Below are positions 1-4,227 of a stretch of DNA of 5,661 nucleotides, piece after piece. A model generated the notes under the pieces. It was not told where the DNA came from. It worked only from the letters and a program-made list of their open reading frames with translations, and did no database searches. Positions within the stretch are counted from its first letter, which is position 1, and every line of letters starts with the position of its first letter. This stretch comes from Pseudomonadota bacterium. Lineage in GTDB: Bacteria; Pseudomonadota; Alphaproteobacteria; Sphingomonadales; Sphingomonadaceae. A program made the position numbers and the translations under genes. The DNA lies in the NCBI GenBank assembly GCA_023424275.1, contig JAFAED010000070.1, positions 1 to 5,661 on the forward strand, read 5' to 3'.

Positions 1-546
1 GGCGACCCGGTGCTGGCACAGCGGGCCGTCGACCTGCTTGCGGGGCATGGCCTTGCCGTCACCGCCGATCCCGAACGCGGGCTCGACCATGGGGCGTGGG
101 TGCCGCTGTCGCTGATCTATCCCGACGCCGACATTCCGGTGGTCCAGCTCTCAATCCATTCGAACGCCTCGCCCGAATGGCATCATGCGCTGGGACGAGC
201 GCTGGAACCGCTCCGCGACGAGAATGTGCTGGTCATCGGATCGGGCAGCATCACGCACAACCTCCGCGCGCTCTTCTCGGCGCGCTTGCCGATCGATGCC
301 CCGGCGCCGGCGTGGGTCACCGATTTTACCGACTGGATCGCCGACCGCATGGCCGCCGGCAGCATCGACGACGTACTGCACAGCGTCGAACGCGCGCCGC
401 ACGGGCACGACAATCATCCGACGCCCGACCATATATTGCCGCTGTTCGTGGCGATGGGCGCGGGCGGGGCGCCGTTCAACGCCAAGCGCCTGCATCACAG
501 CGTCACCTATGGCCTGCTCGCGATGGACGTTTACGCTTTCGACTGA
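1..546 (+). CDS. DODA/LigB-type extradiol ring-opening dioxygenase (5' truncated)
   Basis: Class III extradiol dioxygenase of the DODA/YgiD (LigB) family, a metal-dependent cytoplasmic enzyme that opens catechol-type rings; the substrate cannot be told from sequence. The frame is open from base 1, so the visible 181 residues are the C-terminal two thirds of a protein that is usually about 260 aa. Family marks, numbered from the first visible residue, are GLDHGAWVPL (His30), YPDADIPVVQLSIHSN (about 40-55), SGSITHNLRAL (His86, matching the conserved catalytic His region) and HPTPDHILPL (His144, matching the late metal-ligand His). The N-terminal metal ligands lie outside the window. The stop is TGA at 544-546. 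A 96-base gap with inverted repeats separates it from the next gene, so it may be a separate transcription unit. The family call is strong because the order and spacing of all C-terminal motifs resemble E. coli YgiD; the physiological role is open. Confidence 0.92.
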   Translation, partial: GDPVLAQRAVDLLAGHGLAVTADPERGLDHGAWVPLSLIYPDADIPVVQLSIHSNASPEWHHALGRALEPLRDENVLVIGSGSITHNLRALFSARLPIDAPAPAWVTDFTDWIADRMAAGSIDDVLHSVERAPHGHDNHPTPDHILPLFVAMGAGGAPFNAKRLHHSVTYGLLAMDVYAFD

Positions 547-573
547 CCGGCAGGCCGGCGCATTTCTTTGAGA

Positions 574-629
574 GCCTGATTCACGGTATCGGCAAAAGCG
601 CGAGGCGCTTTCCCCTCAACCGATCAGGC
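574..629. repeat. Nested inverted repeat between dioxygenase and rluA-like gene
   Basis: An outer pair GCCTGAT (574-580) and ATCAGGC (623-629) encloses an inner perfect hairpin AAAGCGC-GAG-GCGCTTT (595-611). Transcribed, this could fold into a long stem with an internal loop and a 7-bp apical stem. A short CCGG-CAGG-CCGG hairpin (547-558) followed by a T-rich stretch lies directly after the dioxygenase stop. Together these could terminate the upstream transcript or form a structured leader. There is no clean U-tract after the inner hairpin, so a standard intrinsic terminator is not proven. Confidence 0.45.
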
Positions 630-631
630 CC

Positions 632-637
632 TATAGC
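632..637 (+). promoter_or_regulatory. Possible -10 element giving a leaderless rluA-like transcript
   Basis: TATAGC lies 5 bases before the ATG at 643, where transcription would start at or next to the A of the start codon. No Shine-Dalgarno sequence is visible before this ATG, which fits a leaderless message. The context CCTATAGC resembles the alphaproteobacterial -10 form GCTANAWC in 6 of 8 positions. No convincing -35 is seen, so this is weak. Confidence 0.28.
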
Positions 638-642
638 GCGCC

Positions 643-1326
643 ATGCTCCTTTCAGATCGCATCCTCTTTCTCGATGGCGAAGCCCTCGTCATCGACAAAC
701 CAGCAGGGCTTCCGGTCGACGCGCCGCGCGACGGTAGCCTCAGCCTCGAAAATCATCTCGACAGCCTGCGCTTTGGTTTCAAACGCTGGCCGCTCGCGGT
801 CCACCGGCTCGACCGCGACACCTCGGGCTGCCTTCTGCTCGCGCGCAATCCCAAGGCGCACGGCCGCTTCACGCGCGCCTTCGAAGGCCGCGAGGTCGAA
901 AAGCAATATCTCGCGATTGTCGACGGCGTGCCCGAAGGGGACAGCGGCACGATCGACCTGCCGCTGTCGAAGGTTTCGACCCCCGAAGAGGGCTGGCGCA
1001 TGGTCGGCGATCCGAAAGGCAAGCCGTCGGTTTCGCATTGGGAAAAGTTGGCGGTCGTCGGCGATCGCGCGCTGCTCCGTTTCCGCCCCGAAACCGGCCG
1101 CACGCACCAACTGCGCGTCCACGCGCTCGAGGGACTCGGCTTTCCGCTCGTCGGCGATCCCGTCTACGGCCGTGGCGGCACCAAAACGCGCACCCTGCTC
1201 CATGCCGAACGGCTGGTCGTAAAACGTGACGTCAAGCCGCCAATAATTGCCGAGGCGCCTTTTCCCGACAGCTTCGTCGCGCTGGGCTTTGCGGCGCCGG
1301 AGGGAGCGGAGCCGACGCGTGGCTGA
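643..1326 (+). CDS. RluA-family RNA pseudouridine synthase
   Basis: Converts specific uridines in rRNA and/or tRNA to pseudouridine in the cytoplasm. The 227-residue protein has the RluA/RsuA catalytic domain from its N-terminus and no S4 RNA-binding domain, a size close to E. coli RluA (about 219 aa). Visible motifs are VIDKPAGLPV (17-25), the catalytic motif HRLDRDTSG (54-62) with nucleophile Asp57, EKQYLAIVDG (86-95) with the conserved Tyr89, GRTHQLRVH (152-160), GDPVYG (171-176) and LLHAERL (185-191). All key positions are intact. The target site (23S rRNA, tRNA or both) cannot be decided here. The start is the first ATG, just upstream of the conserved core; no ribosome binding site is evident. 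The 3' end overlaps the next gene by 8 bases, implying co-transcription and translational coupling. Confidence 0.93.
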   Translation: MLLSDRILFLDGEALVIDKPAGLPVDAPRDGSLSLENHLDSLRFGFKRWPLAVHRLDRDTSGCLLLARNPKAHGRFTRAFEGREVEKQYLAIVDGVPEGDSGTIDLPLSKVSTPEEGWRMVGDPKGKPSVSHWEKLAVVGDRALLRFRPETGRTHQLRVHALEGLGFPLVGDPVYGRGGTKTRTLLHAERLVVKRDVKPPIIAEAPFPDSFVALGFAAPEGAEPTRG

Positions 1327-1717
1327 TATCCCCGAAAATGCGATCAGCGAGAAGTTCCTCGCGGGGTCGGGTCCGGGGGGCCAGAATGTCAACAAGGTCG
1401 CGACCGCATGCCAGCTGCGCGTCGACGTGTTCGCACTGGGGCTCGCCCCCGATGCCTATCGGCGGCTCAAGGTGCTGGCGGGAAGCAGGATGACGGCGGC
1501 GGGCGAACTCGTCATCCTCGCGCGCAGTTTCCGCACACAGGAAGCCAATCGTACCGACGCGCGTGCGCGGCTGAACGAACTGGTCGACGCCGCGCTCGTC
1601 CGCCCCGAACGGCGGATCAAGACCAAGCCCAGCAAGGCGGCCAAGGCAAAGCGTGTCGATACCAAGAAGGCGCGTAGCAACGTCAAGGCCGGGCGCGGCC
1701 GCGTGCGCGTCGATTAG
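1319..1717 (+). CDS. arfB: ArfB-type peptidyl-tRNA hydrolase (ribosome rescue, GGQ protein)
   Basis: Rescues ribosomes stalled without a stop codon by hydrolysing the peptidyl-tRNA ester. The 132-residue product has the release-factor-like domain at about 1-95 with GSGPGGQNVNK at 16-26, where GGQ (20-22) is the catalytic loop. A Lys/Arg-rich tail follows (about 97-130), the part that in E. coli ArfB (YaeJ, 140 aa) sits in the empty mRNA channel. There is no stop-codon-recognition domain, which separates it from RF1/RF2. The GTG start was chosen because IPENAISEKFLAGSGPGGQ aligns with the family N-terminus, and purine-rich GGAGGGA (1299-1305) and GGAG (1308-1311) lie upstream. A longer in-frame reading upstream is only the shadow of the previous gene. 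The gene begins inside the pseudouridine synthase gene and ends 2 bases before the SRAP-like gene. Its place after an RNA-modifying enzyme fits a translation-related operon. Confidence 0.92.
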   Translation: MADIPENAISEKFLAGSGPGGQNVNKVATACQLRVDVFALGLAPDAYRRLKVLAGSRMTAAGELVILARSFRTQEANRTDARARLNELVDAALVRPERRIKTKPSKAAKAKRVDTKKARSNVKAGRGRVRVD

Positions 1718-1719
1718 GC

Positions 1720-2307
1720 ATGCAGCTCTACCGGCTCGATGCCACCGCCACGCAGATTTCGGGCGTTTTCGGCGTCGATGCGGGCGACGACCCCTGGACC
1801 GGCGACTATGTGACGCCCGGCCGTCCCGCGCCGGTGATCGCGCCCGACAGCCGCGGCGGACCGCGCCGTTACCTGCGCCCGAAACTGTGGGGCGTCCCGC
1901 CACCGCCGCAGGGCACGCAGCCCGTCGCGACGGTTCGCAACCTGTCGAGCCCCTTCTGGATCGGCACGCTGCGCCATCCCGAGCTTCGCTGCCTGATCCC
2001 CGCGACCAGCTTTGCCCTGTGGTCGGGTCCGGCGGGCGCGAAACGCCAGCGCTGGGCATCGGTTTCGGGCCGTCCGATCTTCGCTTTTGCCGGCATCCAG
2101 CGCCAGAATGAGGATTGGCCGGGCTTCGCGGTGCTGACGACCGACCCGAACGGCCTGCTCGAGCGCCTCGCCCCCGGCGCGATGCCGCTGATCCTGCATG
2201 CCGAGGATCATGAGCGCTGGCTGACCGCCGAATGGCGCGACGCGGTGCAACTCGTCACGCCCTTCCCCAGCCATTTGATGACGGTCGGCGACCGGCCGCC
2301 AGTATAG
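1720..2307 (+). CDS. Divergent SRAP-family (YedK/HMCES-like) protein, catalytic residues apparently lost
   Basis: Resembles SOS-response-associated peptidase (SRAP) proteins, which bind abasic sites in single-stranded DNA and shield them through a covalent link to Cys2. Scaffold similarity over 195 aa: LYRLDA near the N-terminus, TVRNLSSPFW (71-80), RCLIPATSFALW (90-101), RPIFAFAG (118-125), FAVLTTDPNGLL (137-148), AMPLIL (154-159), a DHERWL stretch (163-168) and a C-terminal PFPSHLMTV. Against the E. coli YedK active site (Cys2, Asn75, Glu105, His160), residue 2 is Gln with no Cys nearby, the Glu before the conserved Trp is Leu100, and the His before AMP is Ala151. The Asn of the N-x-R motif appears to be Thr71, although Arg73 remains. 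The start is firm: the preceding in-frame codons encode no Cys and the gene begins 2 bases after arfB. It is probably a non-catalytic paralogue; DNA binding is possible but unproven. The reading frame is intact, so it is not an obvious pseudogene. Confidence 0.8.
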   Translation: MQLYRLDATATQISGVFGVDAGDDPWTGDYVTPGRPAPVIAPDSRGGPRRYLRPKLWGVPPPPQGTQPVATVRNLSSPFWIGTLRHPELRCLIPATSFALWSGPAGAKRQRWASVSGRPIFAFAGIQRQNEDWPGFAVLTTDPNGLLERLAPGAMPLILHAEDHERWLTAEWRDAVQLVTPFPSHLMTVGDRPPV

Positions 2308-2392
2308 GCGAATTTCACTATATTTCTTCACTTTGAGGTAACCAACGGCGGCGTAAGACGGAGCGAATCAAGAGTACGCTGGGACCAAAGCA
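2308..2392 (+). promoter_or_regulatory. Intergenic leader of the PilZ gene; possible promoter region
   Basis: This 85-base gap opens with a markedly AT-rich stretch (about 2311-2334) that stands out from the GC-rich surroundings. It contains TATATT (2319-2324) and two direct copies of TTCACT (2314-2319 and 2327-2332, 13 bases apart). GGTAACC, a perfect palindrome, follows at 2337-2343. No -35/-10 pair with good spacing could be assigned. The region separates the SRAP-like gene from PilZ and probably carries a separate PilZ promoter. Confidence 0.3.
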
Positions 2393-2719
2393 GTGTTGGG
2401 AAATCGCACCATCGAAGCCAGTCAGGCGCCCGCGTCGGCCCGCCGTGCCGAACGCACGTCGATCGACGGCCGCGCCCGTTTTCGCGAAGCCGGATCCAAT
2501 CCGTTCGACGCCGAACTGTTCGACCTGTCCGCGAACGGCTTTCGCATGTTCACCTTTTCGCGCCAGGCGATCGGCAAGCATATCTGGGTGAACCTGCCCG
2601 GGCTGCAACCGGTGGAAGCCGTGGTGCGCCGGCAGGACGGCAATAATTACGGCTGCGAATTCATCAGTCCGCTGCACCCGTCGGTCGCCGACCATCTGAA
2701 GGCGAAGCTGGCGAAATAA
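2393..2719 (+). CDS. Small single-domain PilZ protein (putative c-di-GMP receptor)
   Basis: A 108-residue protein that is essentially one PilZ domain, the fold that binds cyclic di-GMP and passes the signal to motility, surface or polysaccharide machinery. Both ligand motifs are present: RRAER (R17-x3-R21) and DLSANG (D44-x-S46-x-x-G49). The late beta-strand motif NYGCEFISPL (about 84-95) is also typical. There is no signal peptide or membrane segment, so it is cytosolic. The start is GTG at 2393; the frame closes upstream at a TAA (2354-2356), and the only other early start is the adjacent TTG. The Shine-Dalgarno sequence is weak (GGGAC about 8 bases upstream). It is probably monocistronic, with an AT-rich gap upstream and a terminator-like hairpin right after the stop. 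The output partner cannot be told from the neighbours. Confidence 0.88.
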   Translation: MLGNRTIEASQAPASARRAERTSIDGRARFREAGSNPFDAELFDLSANGFRMFTFSRQAIGKHIWVNLPGLQPVEAVVRRQDGNNYGCEFISPLHPSVADHLKAKLAK

Positions 2720-2721
2720 TC

Positions 2722-2767
2722 GCCCGCACCGCGCGCCGGTTCAGCTTGCGGGCTTTTCCGATTTTTT
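2722..2767 (+). terminator. Probable intrinsic terminator after PilZ (possibly bidirectional)
   Basis: GCCCGCA (2722-2728) and TGCGGGC (2747-2753) form a perfect 7-bp GC-rich stem. It is followed at once by TTTT (2754-2757) and a second run of six T (2762-2767). Within the loop, ACCG and CGGT (2728-2731 and 2737-2740) could make a second small stem. It begins 2 bases past the PilZ TAA and extends into the 3' coding end of the convergent EVE gene. On the minus strand the stem is followed by a weaker AT-rich run, so it may also end EVE transcription. Confidence 0.6.
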
Positions 2768-3166
2768 CAGGATATGCTTCCATTCGGCGGGCGTGACGCG
2801 CCCGACCGACAGCCGCGACTGGCGGATCAGGTCCATGTCGGCGAGCGCCGGATCGGCCTTGATCGCCGCGAGCGTCACCGGATGCTTCAGCGCGCGCACC
2901 GGCGCGACGCGCACAATGACCCAGGGCGATCCCTGTTCCGCGGTCGGGTCGGGTGAGGCGGTTTCGGTGATCGTCATGATCCCCACGCATTCCTTGCCGA
3001 TATTGCTGTGATAGAAGAGCGCCTCGTCGCCGACCTTCATCGCCATCAGGTTCAGCTTCGCGGTGTGATTGCGCACCCCGTCCCACATCCCCGTGCCTTC
3101 ACGCACAAGCTGGTCCCACGCATAGGCGTCGGGTTCGGATTTCATCAGCCAATATTGCTTTGCCAT
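2741..3166 (-). CDS. EVE domain-containing protein (PUA-like superfamily)
   Basis: A 141-residue single-domain EVE protein, of the PUA/YTH-like fold related to human THYN1. EVE domains have a pocket for modified bases in DNA or RNA; what this one binds is unknown. Marks are QYWLMKSEPDAYAWDQL at the start (4-20), WDGVRNHTAKLNL (28-40), KVGDEALFYHSN (44-55), VGIMTITETA (61-70) and the C-terminal RLSVGRVTPAEW (118-129). Start: ATG at 3166-3164, because family members begin a few residues before YWLMKSEP; a 29-residue upstream extension is Arg/Ala-rich and unconserved. No ribosome binding site is clear. It converges with PilZ and diverges from the 2OG oxygenase gene. The link to nucleic-acid quality control with the nearby RluA/ArfB/SRAP genes is only suggestive, since it is on the other strand. 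Confidence 0.92.
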   Translation of the reverse strand: MAKQYWLMKSEPDAYAWDQLVREGTGMWDGVRNHTAKLNLMAMKVGDEALFYHSNIGKECVGIMTITETASPDPTAEQGSPWVIVRVAPVRALKHPVTLAAIKADPALADMDLIRQSRLSVGRVTPAEWKHILKKSEKPAS

Positions 3167-3297
3167 GGCGGCGGGCTTAGCCGAGCGGCGCGCGGGACGA
3201 AACCGCCTTTTTCCCTTTAACCGCAGCCGCGCAGCGCCTAAATCGCGACTCATGACGCGCCCATGGGCGCCGCCCCTTATCAGATGGACTATCCCGC
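3167..3297. promoter_or_regulatory. Divergent promoter region between EVE and 2OG oxygenase genes, with a 14-bp palindrome
   Basis: These 131 bases must hold promoters for both divergent genes. A perfect palindrome GCGCCCATGGGCGC occupies 3257-3270, 27 bases before the oxygenase ATG, and could be an operator or just GC-rich chance. On the minus strand GCTAAGCC (3181-3174) sits 7 bases before the EVE ATG and resembles an alphaproteobacterial -10 in 6 of 8 positions. An AT-richer patch lies at about 3208-3221. No Shine-Dalgarno is visible before either start. Confidence 0.4.
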
Positions 3298-4227
3298 ATG
3301 ACTGCTGCCGTTCCCGTCATTTCCATGTCGCTTCCCGCCGACCAGTTCGCGAAGGATTTCGGGGCGTCGTTCGAACGCTTCGGCTTCGCGATGATCACCG
3401 ACCATGGCATCGACGCCGCGCTGATCGACGAGGCCTGGGACAAGGCGAAGGCTTTCTTCGCGCTGCCCGAGCAAACCAAGCGCGCCTATCATATCGCGGG
3501 CGGCGGCGGCGCGCGCGGCTATACGCCGTTCGGTACCGAGATCGCCAAGGGCGCGAAGGAAGTGGACCTCAAGGAATTCTGGCACGTCGGCCGCGACCTG
3601 CCCGAAGGCCACCGCCTCGCGGCGCAGCAGCCGAACAATGTCTGGCCGAAGGAAGTCGAGGGCTTCCGCACCGCCTATGACAAGCTCTTCGCCGAATTCG
3701 ACCGCGTCGGCGGCCGCCTGCTGTCGGGCATCGCGCGCTACCTCGGCCTCGCGCCCGATTTCTTCGACGACACCGTCGCCGACGGCAACAGCGTGATGCG
3801 CCTGCTCCACTATCCGCCCGTCGAGGCGCCTGCCAAGGGTATCCGCGCCGAAGCGCATGAGGATATCAACACGATCACCCTGCTGCTCGGTGCCGAAGAG
3901 GCGGGGCTCGAAATCCTCGACAAGGACGGAAGCTGGCTCCCCGTCTCGCCGCCGCCGGGCGCAATGGCGGTCAATGTCGGCGACATGCTGCAGCGGCTGA
4001 CCAACAACAAGCTGCCCTCGACCACCCACCGCGTGCGCAATCCCGATGCGGGCCGCGCCAGCGTCGCGCGTTACTCGATGCCCTTCTTCCTGCACTTCCG
4101 GTCGGACTATCCGATCGAGACGCTGGAAAGCTGCGTCGATGCGTCGCACCCGAACCTCTACCCGACGCCGATCACTGCGGACGAATATCTGCAACAGCGG
4201 CTGCGCGAGATCGGGCTGAAGAAATAA
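3298..4227 (+). CDS. Isopenicillin-N-synthase-like 2-oxoglutarate/Fe(II) oxygenase
   Basis: Non-haem iron oxygenase of the isopenicillin N synthase/2OG-Fe(II) family, 309 aa, soluble and cytoplasmic; the substrate is unknown. An N-terminal DIOX_N-type region (about 5-115) includes FERFGFAMITDHGID (25-39) and RGYTPFGTE (73-81). The jelly-roll 2OG-FeII_Oxy domain (about 164-268) includes MRLLHYPP (167-174). The iron triad is intact: H187 and D189 in EAHEDINTITLLLG and H244 in STTHRVRNP. R258-x-S260 in the motif RYSMPFF is the expected site for the co-substrate carboxylate. AVNVGDMLQRLTNNK (224-238) is also typical. The start is ATG 3298, with no visible ribosome binding site. Family members range from antibiotic and flavonoid enzymes to many uncharacterised bacterial proteins, and nothing nearby suggests a biosynthetic cluster. 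A housekeeping or catabolic oxidation is as likely as a secondary-metabolism role. Confidence 0.93.
   Translation: MTAAVPVISMSLPADQFAKDFGASFERFGFAMITDHGIDAALIDEAWDKAKAFFALPEQTKRAYHIAGGGGARGYTPFGTEIAKGAKEVDLKEFWHVGRDLPEGHRLAAQQPNNVWPKEVEGFRTAYDKLFAEFDRVGGRLLSGIARYLGLAPDFFDDTVADGNSVMRLLHYPPVEAPAKGIRAEAHEDINTITLLLGAEEAGLEILDKDGSWLPVSPPPGAMAVNVGDMLQRLTNNKLPSTTHRVRNPDAGRASVARYSMPFFLHFRSDYPIETLESCVDASHPNLYPTPITADEYLQQRLREIGLKK

Follow-up and report, generated by a model that had tools for sequence, protein, structure and literature searches.

What can a protein of the SRAP family do once the residues that bond it to DNA are gone? The question is raised by a 195-residue protein encoded on the forward strand at positions 1720..2307 of the window, by which we mean the whole stretch of 5,661 nucleotides analysed here, sphingomonad DNA whose nearest relatives are Sphingopyxis. 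The accepted function of SRAPs is to shield abasic sites by a covalent bond. In YedK, ring opening of the sugar depends on Glu105 and His160, a Schiff base forms through the alpha-amine of residue 2, assisted by Glu105, and the cysteine thiol then closes the thiazolidine. In PMC3765255, Cys2 of SRAP is described as "absolutely conserved". Our protein has SRAP as its single Pfam match (PF02586, 49.2 bits versus a gathering score of 27.1), an NCBIfam search of the window gave no match, and the fold is, by homology and by a confident structure prediction, that of SRAP (BB1717-like).

Alignment, the Pfam match and the structure model together confirm what the earlier note had claimed, namely that an SRAP-fold protein is encoded here without the residues of SRAP chemistry. 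Its N-terminus reads M-Q-L-Y, where relatives have, for example, M-T-N-L-Y or M-C-N-L-Y, and in the structure comparison the first residue of the model is matched to residue 2 of YedK. A cysteine as second residue, exposed after removal of the methionine, is absent, and its column is occupied by Met1, at the start codon (1720..1722). Further along the same strand, Thr71 (1930..1932) replaces the Asn of the N-x-R motif (YedK Asn75), Leu100 (2017..2019) the catalytic Glu (YedK Glu105) and Ala151 (2170..2172) the catalytic His (YedK His160). All four equivalents of E. coli YedK and of the HMCES SRAP domain are hence replaced, in contrast to Atu5096 (AGR_pAT_140, PDB 2aeg), which carries the full set (MCNLYR, TNVR, TSFAE and IHEKAMP). 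We saw no catalytic residue supplied from another position, alignment and structure agreeing on the columns. What is kept is the Arg of N-x-R, Arg73 (1936..1938), which, counting along the alignment, matches Arg86 of 1zn6. According to PMC3765255, Arg86 and Arg180 of 1zn6 are predicted to contact DNA; the second of them is Ala154 in the window protein, and an alanine in intact orthologues too. Judged on its sequence, the window protein is a member of the SRAP superfamily by descent (PF02586) that stands outside the YedK/HMCES-type cross-linkers, and it should neither cross-link DNA nor act efficiently as a lyase.

These replacements do not stem from a mis-called start, since there is no in-frame ATG, GTG or TTG upstream of 1720, and the start codon of relatives (mostly ATG, some GTG or TTG, a few CTG or ATT) lies at the same place or one codon earlier. 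The frame itself is intact, as had been claimed.

The earlier note envisaged a conserved clade without the cysteine, and such a clade does exist. Among the query and the best 120 of 1154 relatives from the protein search, Cys is present in 2, Asn in 14, Glu in 27 and His in 17, while Arg is present in 121 of 121. Orthologues were those scoring at least 282 bits, against 176 bits for the next group, and by this threshold 70 of the 80 genus genomes, counted by hand, have a copy and 10 have none. The Cys column of these 70 copies holds Thr in 46, Met in 18, Leu in two and Ser, Val and Cys in one each, with one copy cut off; Asn is kept in two, Glu in 14, His in 12 and Arg73 in all 70. The sole complete copy is L189, and the one lacking its N-terminus (L186) holds Asn, Glu and His. 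Intact members of the same orthologous group are found nonetheless: P0116, 65% identical to the query, and L058 from Chakrabartia, 57% identical, differ from the window gene in that their C-N-R-E-H set is whole. Threonine, the main replacement of the cysteine, lies two base changes away from a Cys codon, and in this column it would be exposed by removal of the methionine.

Did the cysteine disappear once or repeatedly? A careful tree of 66 rows was built with the catalytic columns left out, after removal of the outgroup rows L139, L145 and L146 and of 17 near-duplicates from 86. Arg73 is Arg in all 66 rows, and changes between Cys and not-Cys number four, giving four groups without the cysteine: the Sphingopyxis clade, a Sphingobium-type clade, a pair from N. 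panipatense and a large Novosphingobium clade, the last being sister to the intact L056 (100/99). A single ancient loss behind all the dead lines is rejected by the AU test: with groups named after the first tree was seen, and with the long branches L046, L063, L076 and L132 included, one clade of all 53 dead rows was rejected (p-AU 0.0034), as was one clade of the 20 dead rows outside Sphingopyxis (p-AU 0.022). The N. panipatense pair is only weakly placed (it joins L049 at 87/31), which makes three losses the safe count and four the parsimony count; from these sequences, three separate losses of the cysteine look safe. Half-way stages also occur. P0100 has kept Cys and His and lost Asn and Glu, while L049 has kept Cys, Asn and Glu and has Asn in place of His, a pair of patterns which implies that the order of loss differed.

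Loss has been concentrated on the catalytic columns. We compared 68 dead copies with nine rows of the intact group, having excluded L189 and L186 from the dead set (they hold C-N-E-H or N-E-H) and L042 and the distant intact L076 from the intact set. Seven columns are fixed among the intact rows but lost from the dead copies: 1 (Cys2), 2 (the position next to it), 71 (Asn), 100 (Glu), 151 (His), 153 (a Lys two residues beyond the His) and 184. Fixed in dead and intact copies alike are 54 columns, the Arg beside the pocket among them. A second comparison, with the same exclusions and with L049 (Cys kept, His lost) in neither set, started from the 66 columns that are identical in eight strictly intact rows. 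The four least retained of them in the 68 dead copies are Cys (0%), Asn (0%), His (15%) and Glu (18%), with a hypergeometric p of 1.4e-6, although part of this contrast is built in, because intact rows were picked for C-N-E-H and two such genus copies were excluded from the dead. With the Cys column set aside, Asn, His and Glu still rank lowest in retention among the remaining 65. Taken line by line, the four catalytic columns are all among the eight lost in the Sphingobium-type line (p 1e-4) and among the 13 lost in the large Novosphingobium line (p 1e-3); of the 17 lost in the N. panipatense line, three are catalytic, Glu being kept (p 0.05). Arg73 is retained at 100% in every dead line. The loss of Asn by itself says little, given that N75A alone has only a modest effect on YedK (PMC9436759).

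A tree of 40 syntenic copies and the query yields a similar view of rates. N71 has changed 10 times (89th percentile), E100 13 times (95th) and H151 14 times (96th). The Cys column, with only five changes (68th percentile) and Thr in 46 of 70 orthologues, may not be free of selection.

Retention under purifying selection, another claim of the earlier note, finds support in substitution rates. Between the query and ten relatives the median dN/dS is 0.16 for the SRAP gene, compared to 0.12 for RluA, 0.09 for ArfB, 0.16 for EVE, 0.09 for 2OG and 0.32 for PilZ; over the 753 of 820 pairs with dS below 1, the SRAP median is 0.25. On the syntenic tree, 55 of 195 columns have not changed at all. Slow decay of the gene is a reading to which we give hardly any credence. 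One could invoke for it the SRAP rate, which is above those of ArfB and 2OG, the absence of a copy from 10 of the 80 genus genomes, and a frameshift near the C-terminus of the copy in Sphingopyxis sp. PET50. But in 68 of the 70 copies the match runs free of internal stops and of a break like that of PET50, the TAA in G025 is an ordinary stop that comes a few residues early, and a dN/dS near 0.16 goes together with the 55 unchanged columns and the 54 fixed in dead and intact copies. For the clade as a whole, the 70 orthologues, low dN/dS and unchanged columns speak against the idea of a lone decaying gene. As for PET50 (L053, 6001-6580), its genome is complete and has a single SRAP match, of the dead type, and the frameshift near residue 162 is either real decay or a sequencing error.

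What, then, would be selected? Our main reading is that the window protein is an SRAP pseudoenzyme, which lacks all four cross-linking residues, is maintained by purifying selection and likely binds abasic or single-stranded DNA without a covalent bond; we put its probability at about 0.5. With Cys, Glu and His gone, there would be no ring opening, no efficient Schiff base and no closure of a thiazolidine. The groove, in turn, may still take up single-stranded DNA or an abasic site by means of Arg73 and a conserved frame comprising W57-G58, V72-R73-N74-L75, S77-P78-F79-W80 and G82-T83-L84-R85-H86. Such a protein could work as a reversible shield or sensor at abasic or single-stranded sites, leaving behind no DNA-protein cross-link to be repaired, and the covalent job would be left to a live SRAP, mostly present in the same cells. 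As Arg73 and the invariant frame around it have been kept, a reversible grip on single-stranded or abasic DNA seems to us the most economical reading. The fold might also accommodate RNA or another protein.

A weaker form of chemistry might also have survived: the protein could act as an AP lyase whose Schiff base with abasic sites is made by the free alpha-amine at its N-terminus, that of Met1 or, in relatives, that of Thr once the Met has been removed. Methionine before threonine can be cleaved by methionine aminopeptidase. Met1 sits at the Cys2 position in the structure model, Thr occupies the column in 46 of the 70 orthologues, 14 of the 70 keep Glu, and in YedK C2A the N-terminal amine can still form a Schiff base (PMC9436759). 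However, the query has no Glu, the lyase activity of YedK C2A E105Q is 25-fold slower than that of C2A (PMC9436759), and the Glu column has changed 13 times on the syntenic tree, all of which renders this chemistry most improbable. It is also very unlikely, if somewhat less so, that the pocket has been re-used in a new enzyme or a ligand-binding protein. In its favour, Arg53, Ala95, Ser102, Pro134 and Asp43 have become almost invariant in the dead clade alone (in the Asp43 column only two intact rows align); against it, residues at the Asn, Glu and His columns are unconstrained, which one would not expect of a new active site there.

The gene neighbourhood varies between loci and for that reason says little about function. 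Upstream in the window and on the same strand lie a gene for an RluA-type pseudouridine synthase (643..1326, PF00849) and an RF-1-domain gene of ArfB size, here called ArfB (1319..1717; its PF00472 match is on a longer frame, open from 1247, and the GTG start at 1319 was chosen by eye). The two overlap by 8 nt, and the second ends 2 nt before the SRAP start. Downstream is a gene for a PilZ-domain protein (2393..2719, forward strand, PF07238), and beyond it Pfam identifies an EVE gene on the opposite strand and then a 2OG-oxygenase gene. The Pfam neighbours in the window are LigB, RluA, RF-1, PilZ, EVE, 2OG and M50, none of them a DNA-damage gene, which counts against a reversible DNA binder, as does Ala154 at the place of the second predicted contact Arg. 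Mutagenic polymerase genes (umuDC, imuAB-dnaE2, dinB), which adjoin the SRAPs of SOS clusters, are not among the window neighbours of this one. Scanning 500-3300 for promoters and terminators gave nothing exceeding chance, and no tRNA was found in the window or in five loci with an insert between ArfB and SRAP.

The description of the gene as part of a tight operon fits the window, with its 8-nt overlap and 2-nt gap, and fails as a general rule. The order RluA-ArfB-SRAP is found in 40 of 80 loci, which form our syntenic set, and the spacing between the ArfB and SRAP matches is 5-28 nt in 30 of these 40 and 291-314 nt in the other 10. In the ten wide-spaced loci, the SRAP gene is preceded by a small ORF and by a stretch resembling TTGACA that is conserved, so that joint transcription is not general. 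Outside the syntenic set, a scan of 20 neighbours showed surE, guanylate kinase, enoyl-CoA hydratase, rpsL, LigAB and others adjoining. This bears on the proposal that the protein has moved to RNA, as an SRAP-fold RNA binder serving the co-directional pseudouridine synthase and ribosome rescue genes. The shared gene order in half of the loci and the close packing in the window count in its favour. Yet the small ORF, the TTGACA-like stretch and the 291-314 nt between ArfB and SRAP in 10 of the 40 syntenic loci speak against it, as do the unrelated genes (surE, rpsL, etc.) that adjoin dead and intact orthologues outside the syntenic set, and we regard it as quite unlikely. The inserted ORF (L003:2118-2408 and nine more loci) is conserved, of some 50-60 codons, and has a hydrophobic start with Gly-Cys that by eye resembles a lipoprotein; in the same ten loci the stretch before SRAP reads ATTGACA.

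A different kind of role would depend on other SRAPs in the cell. At least one SRAP exceeds the Pfam cut-off in each of the 40 genomes searched, and a normal Cys2 SRAP, for which the earlier note had proposed to look, is present in most of the same genomes: 24 of the 27 Sphingopyxis genomes have a strict C-N-R-E-H SRAP elsewhere, or 25 of 27 when C-N-E-H is counted, the one extra being a C-N-E-H form without the Arg. In the underlying live/dead census, which skipped six repeat loci and in which the second SRAP of G036 was not seen, L142 (broken), L140 and the pieces L104, L148 and L149, which have no N-terminus, were counted as dead by rule, and some of these five may be live genes that have been cut. 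The single Pfam match of G036 is another, live SRAP (MCN, TNVR, TEFAE, IHPKAM). In three of the 40 genomes (G025, G027 and G029), the sole SRAP match is the Cys-less one, whose frame is shifted in G027 but intact in the other two; the G029 copy retains Glu. Dependence on a live paralogue is therefore not a general feature, and the suggested regulation of an active paralogue is weakened accordingly.

SRAPs are known as monomers, which counts against a partner or regulator of the live SRAP in the same cell, acting for instance in a mixed complex or by competition for abasic sites. For such a partner speak the C-N-E-H SRAP found elsewhere in 25 of 27 Sphingopyxis genomes and the three other dead SRAP types that adjoin a live SRAP, so that dead-plus-live pairing does occur in these bacteria; moreover PET50, one of the three genomes without a live SRAP, has a frameshifted dead copy. 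Nevertheless, two of the three genomes with the Cys-less form only have it in an intact frame, and none of the 80 loci that surround genes of the query type shows a second SRAP frame. On balance we consider this role unlikely.

Returning to the non-covalent pseudoenzyme, we tentatively extend it, at somewhat less than even odds, to a recurrent class: in sphingomonads, parallel changes at the same positions may have converted the DNA-protein cross-linker more than once into a protein that reads DNA without bonding to it, with three further dead types kept beside live SRAPs, some in repair cassettes with dnaE2-, imuB- and AlkB-like genes. If this were true, suicide chemistry would be only one of two jobs of the SRAP fold. 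The repeated removal of the chemistry, with fold and predicted DNA-facing Arg kept, points to a selected role without cross-linking. Inactive paralogues of DNA-repair enzymes kept in DNA-damage pathways, ImuB and SulA among others, are described in PMC3765255. They resemble the window SRAP in being catalytically dead, but have other folds, and they are paralogues, whereas live and dead SRAP forms here are orthologues and not only paralogues. A Cys-less SRAP group appeared in no title or abstract among the matches listed from the open-licence PMC literature, which is no proof of absence. Since intact orthologues share about 55-65% identity with them, these proteins offer naturally occurring separation-of-function variants that could probe what SRAPs do besides bonding to DNA; the database names "SOS response-associated peptidase" and "YedK" would then mislead for some of them.

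The three other dead types differ in residues and arrangement. In 18 of 25 loci examined by tblastn, a live SRAP of the MCNDYRLEV type stands head to head with a dead 192-residue SRAP that has no Asn, Glu or His (L125:704-1345, minus strand, and L125:1308-1883, plus strand; also L197:5601-7376). In L197, the dead gene shares 4 nt with a gene for an AlkB-type 2OG-oxygenase, with an imuB-like gene nearby, and an AlkB-like gene is seen in seven of the 18 head-to-head loci, several others being too short to show it. A second type, MSRLYTLAA or MSRLH, has Ser, Leu and Asn for Cys, Asn and Glu, and Asn for His, and is followed by a C-N-E-H SRAP in L198:1231-7355 (G013), L084, L114, L121, L131 and L134, some 0.6-0.7 kb further on in L121, L131 and L134. 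The pair in L198 lies behind genes for a dnaE2-like polymerase and ImuB-C (DUF6504) and before an AlkB-like gene. The third type, of 172-249 residues, has LK or LQ for N-x-R and neither Glu nor His, and lies immediately upstream of a live SRAP (L085:969-2172, L089, L091-L095, L103, L105, L111, L113 and L196:5235-6468). The broken SRAP of L142, from G034, is of the live type. Finally, four C-N-E-H SRAPs (L110, L121, L131 and L134) have NNIAD for N-x-R, which means that there the Arg was lost and the chemistry kept, the reverse of what happened in the window gene.
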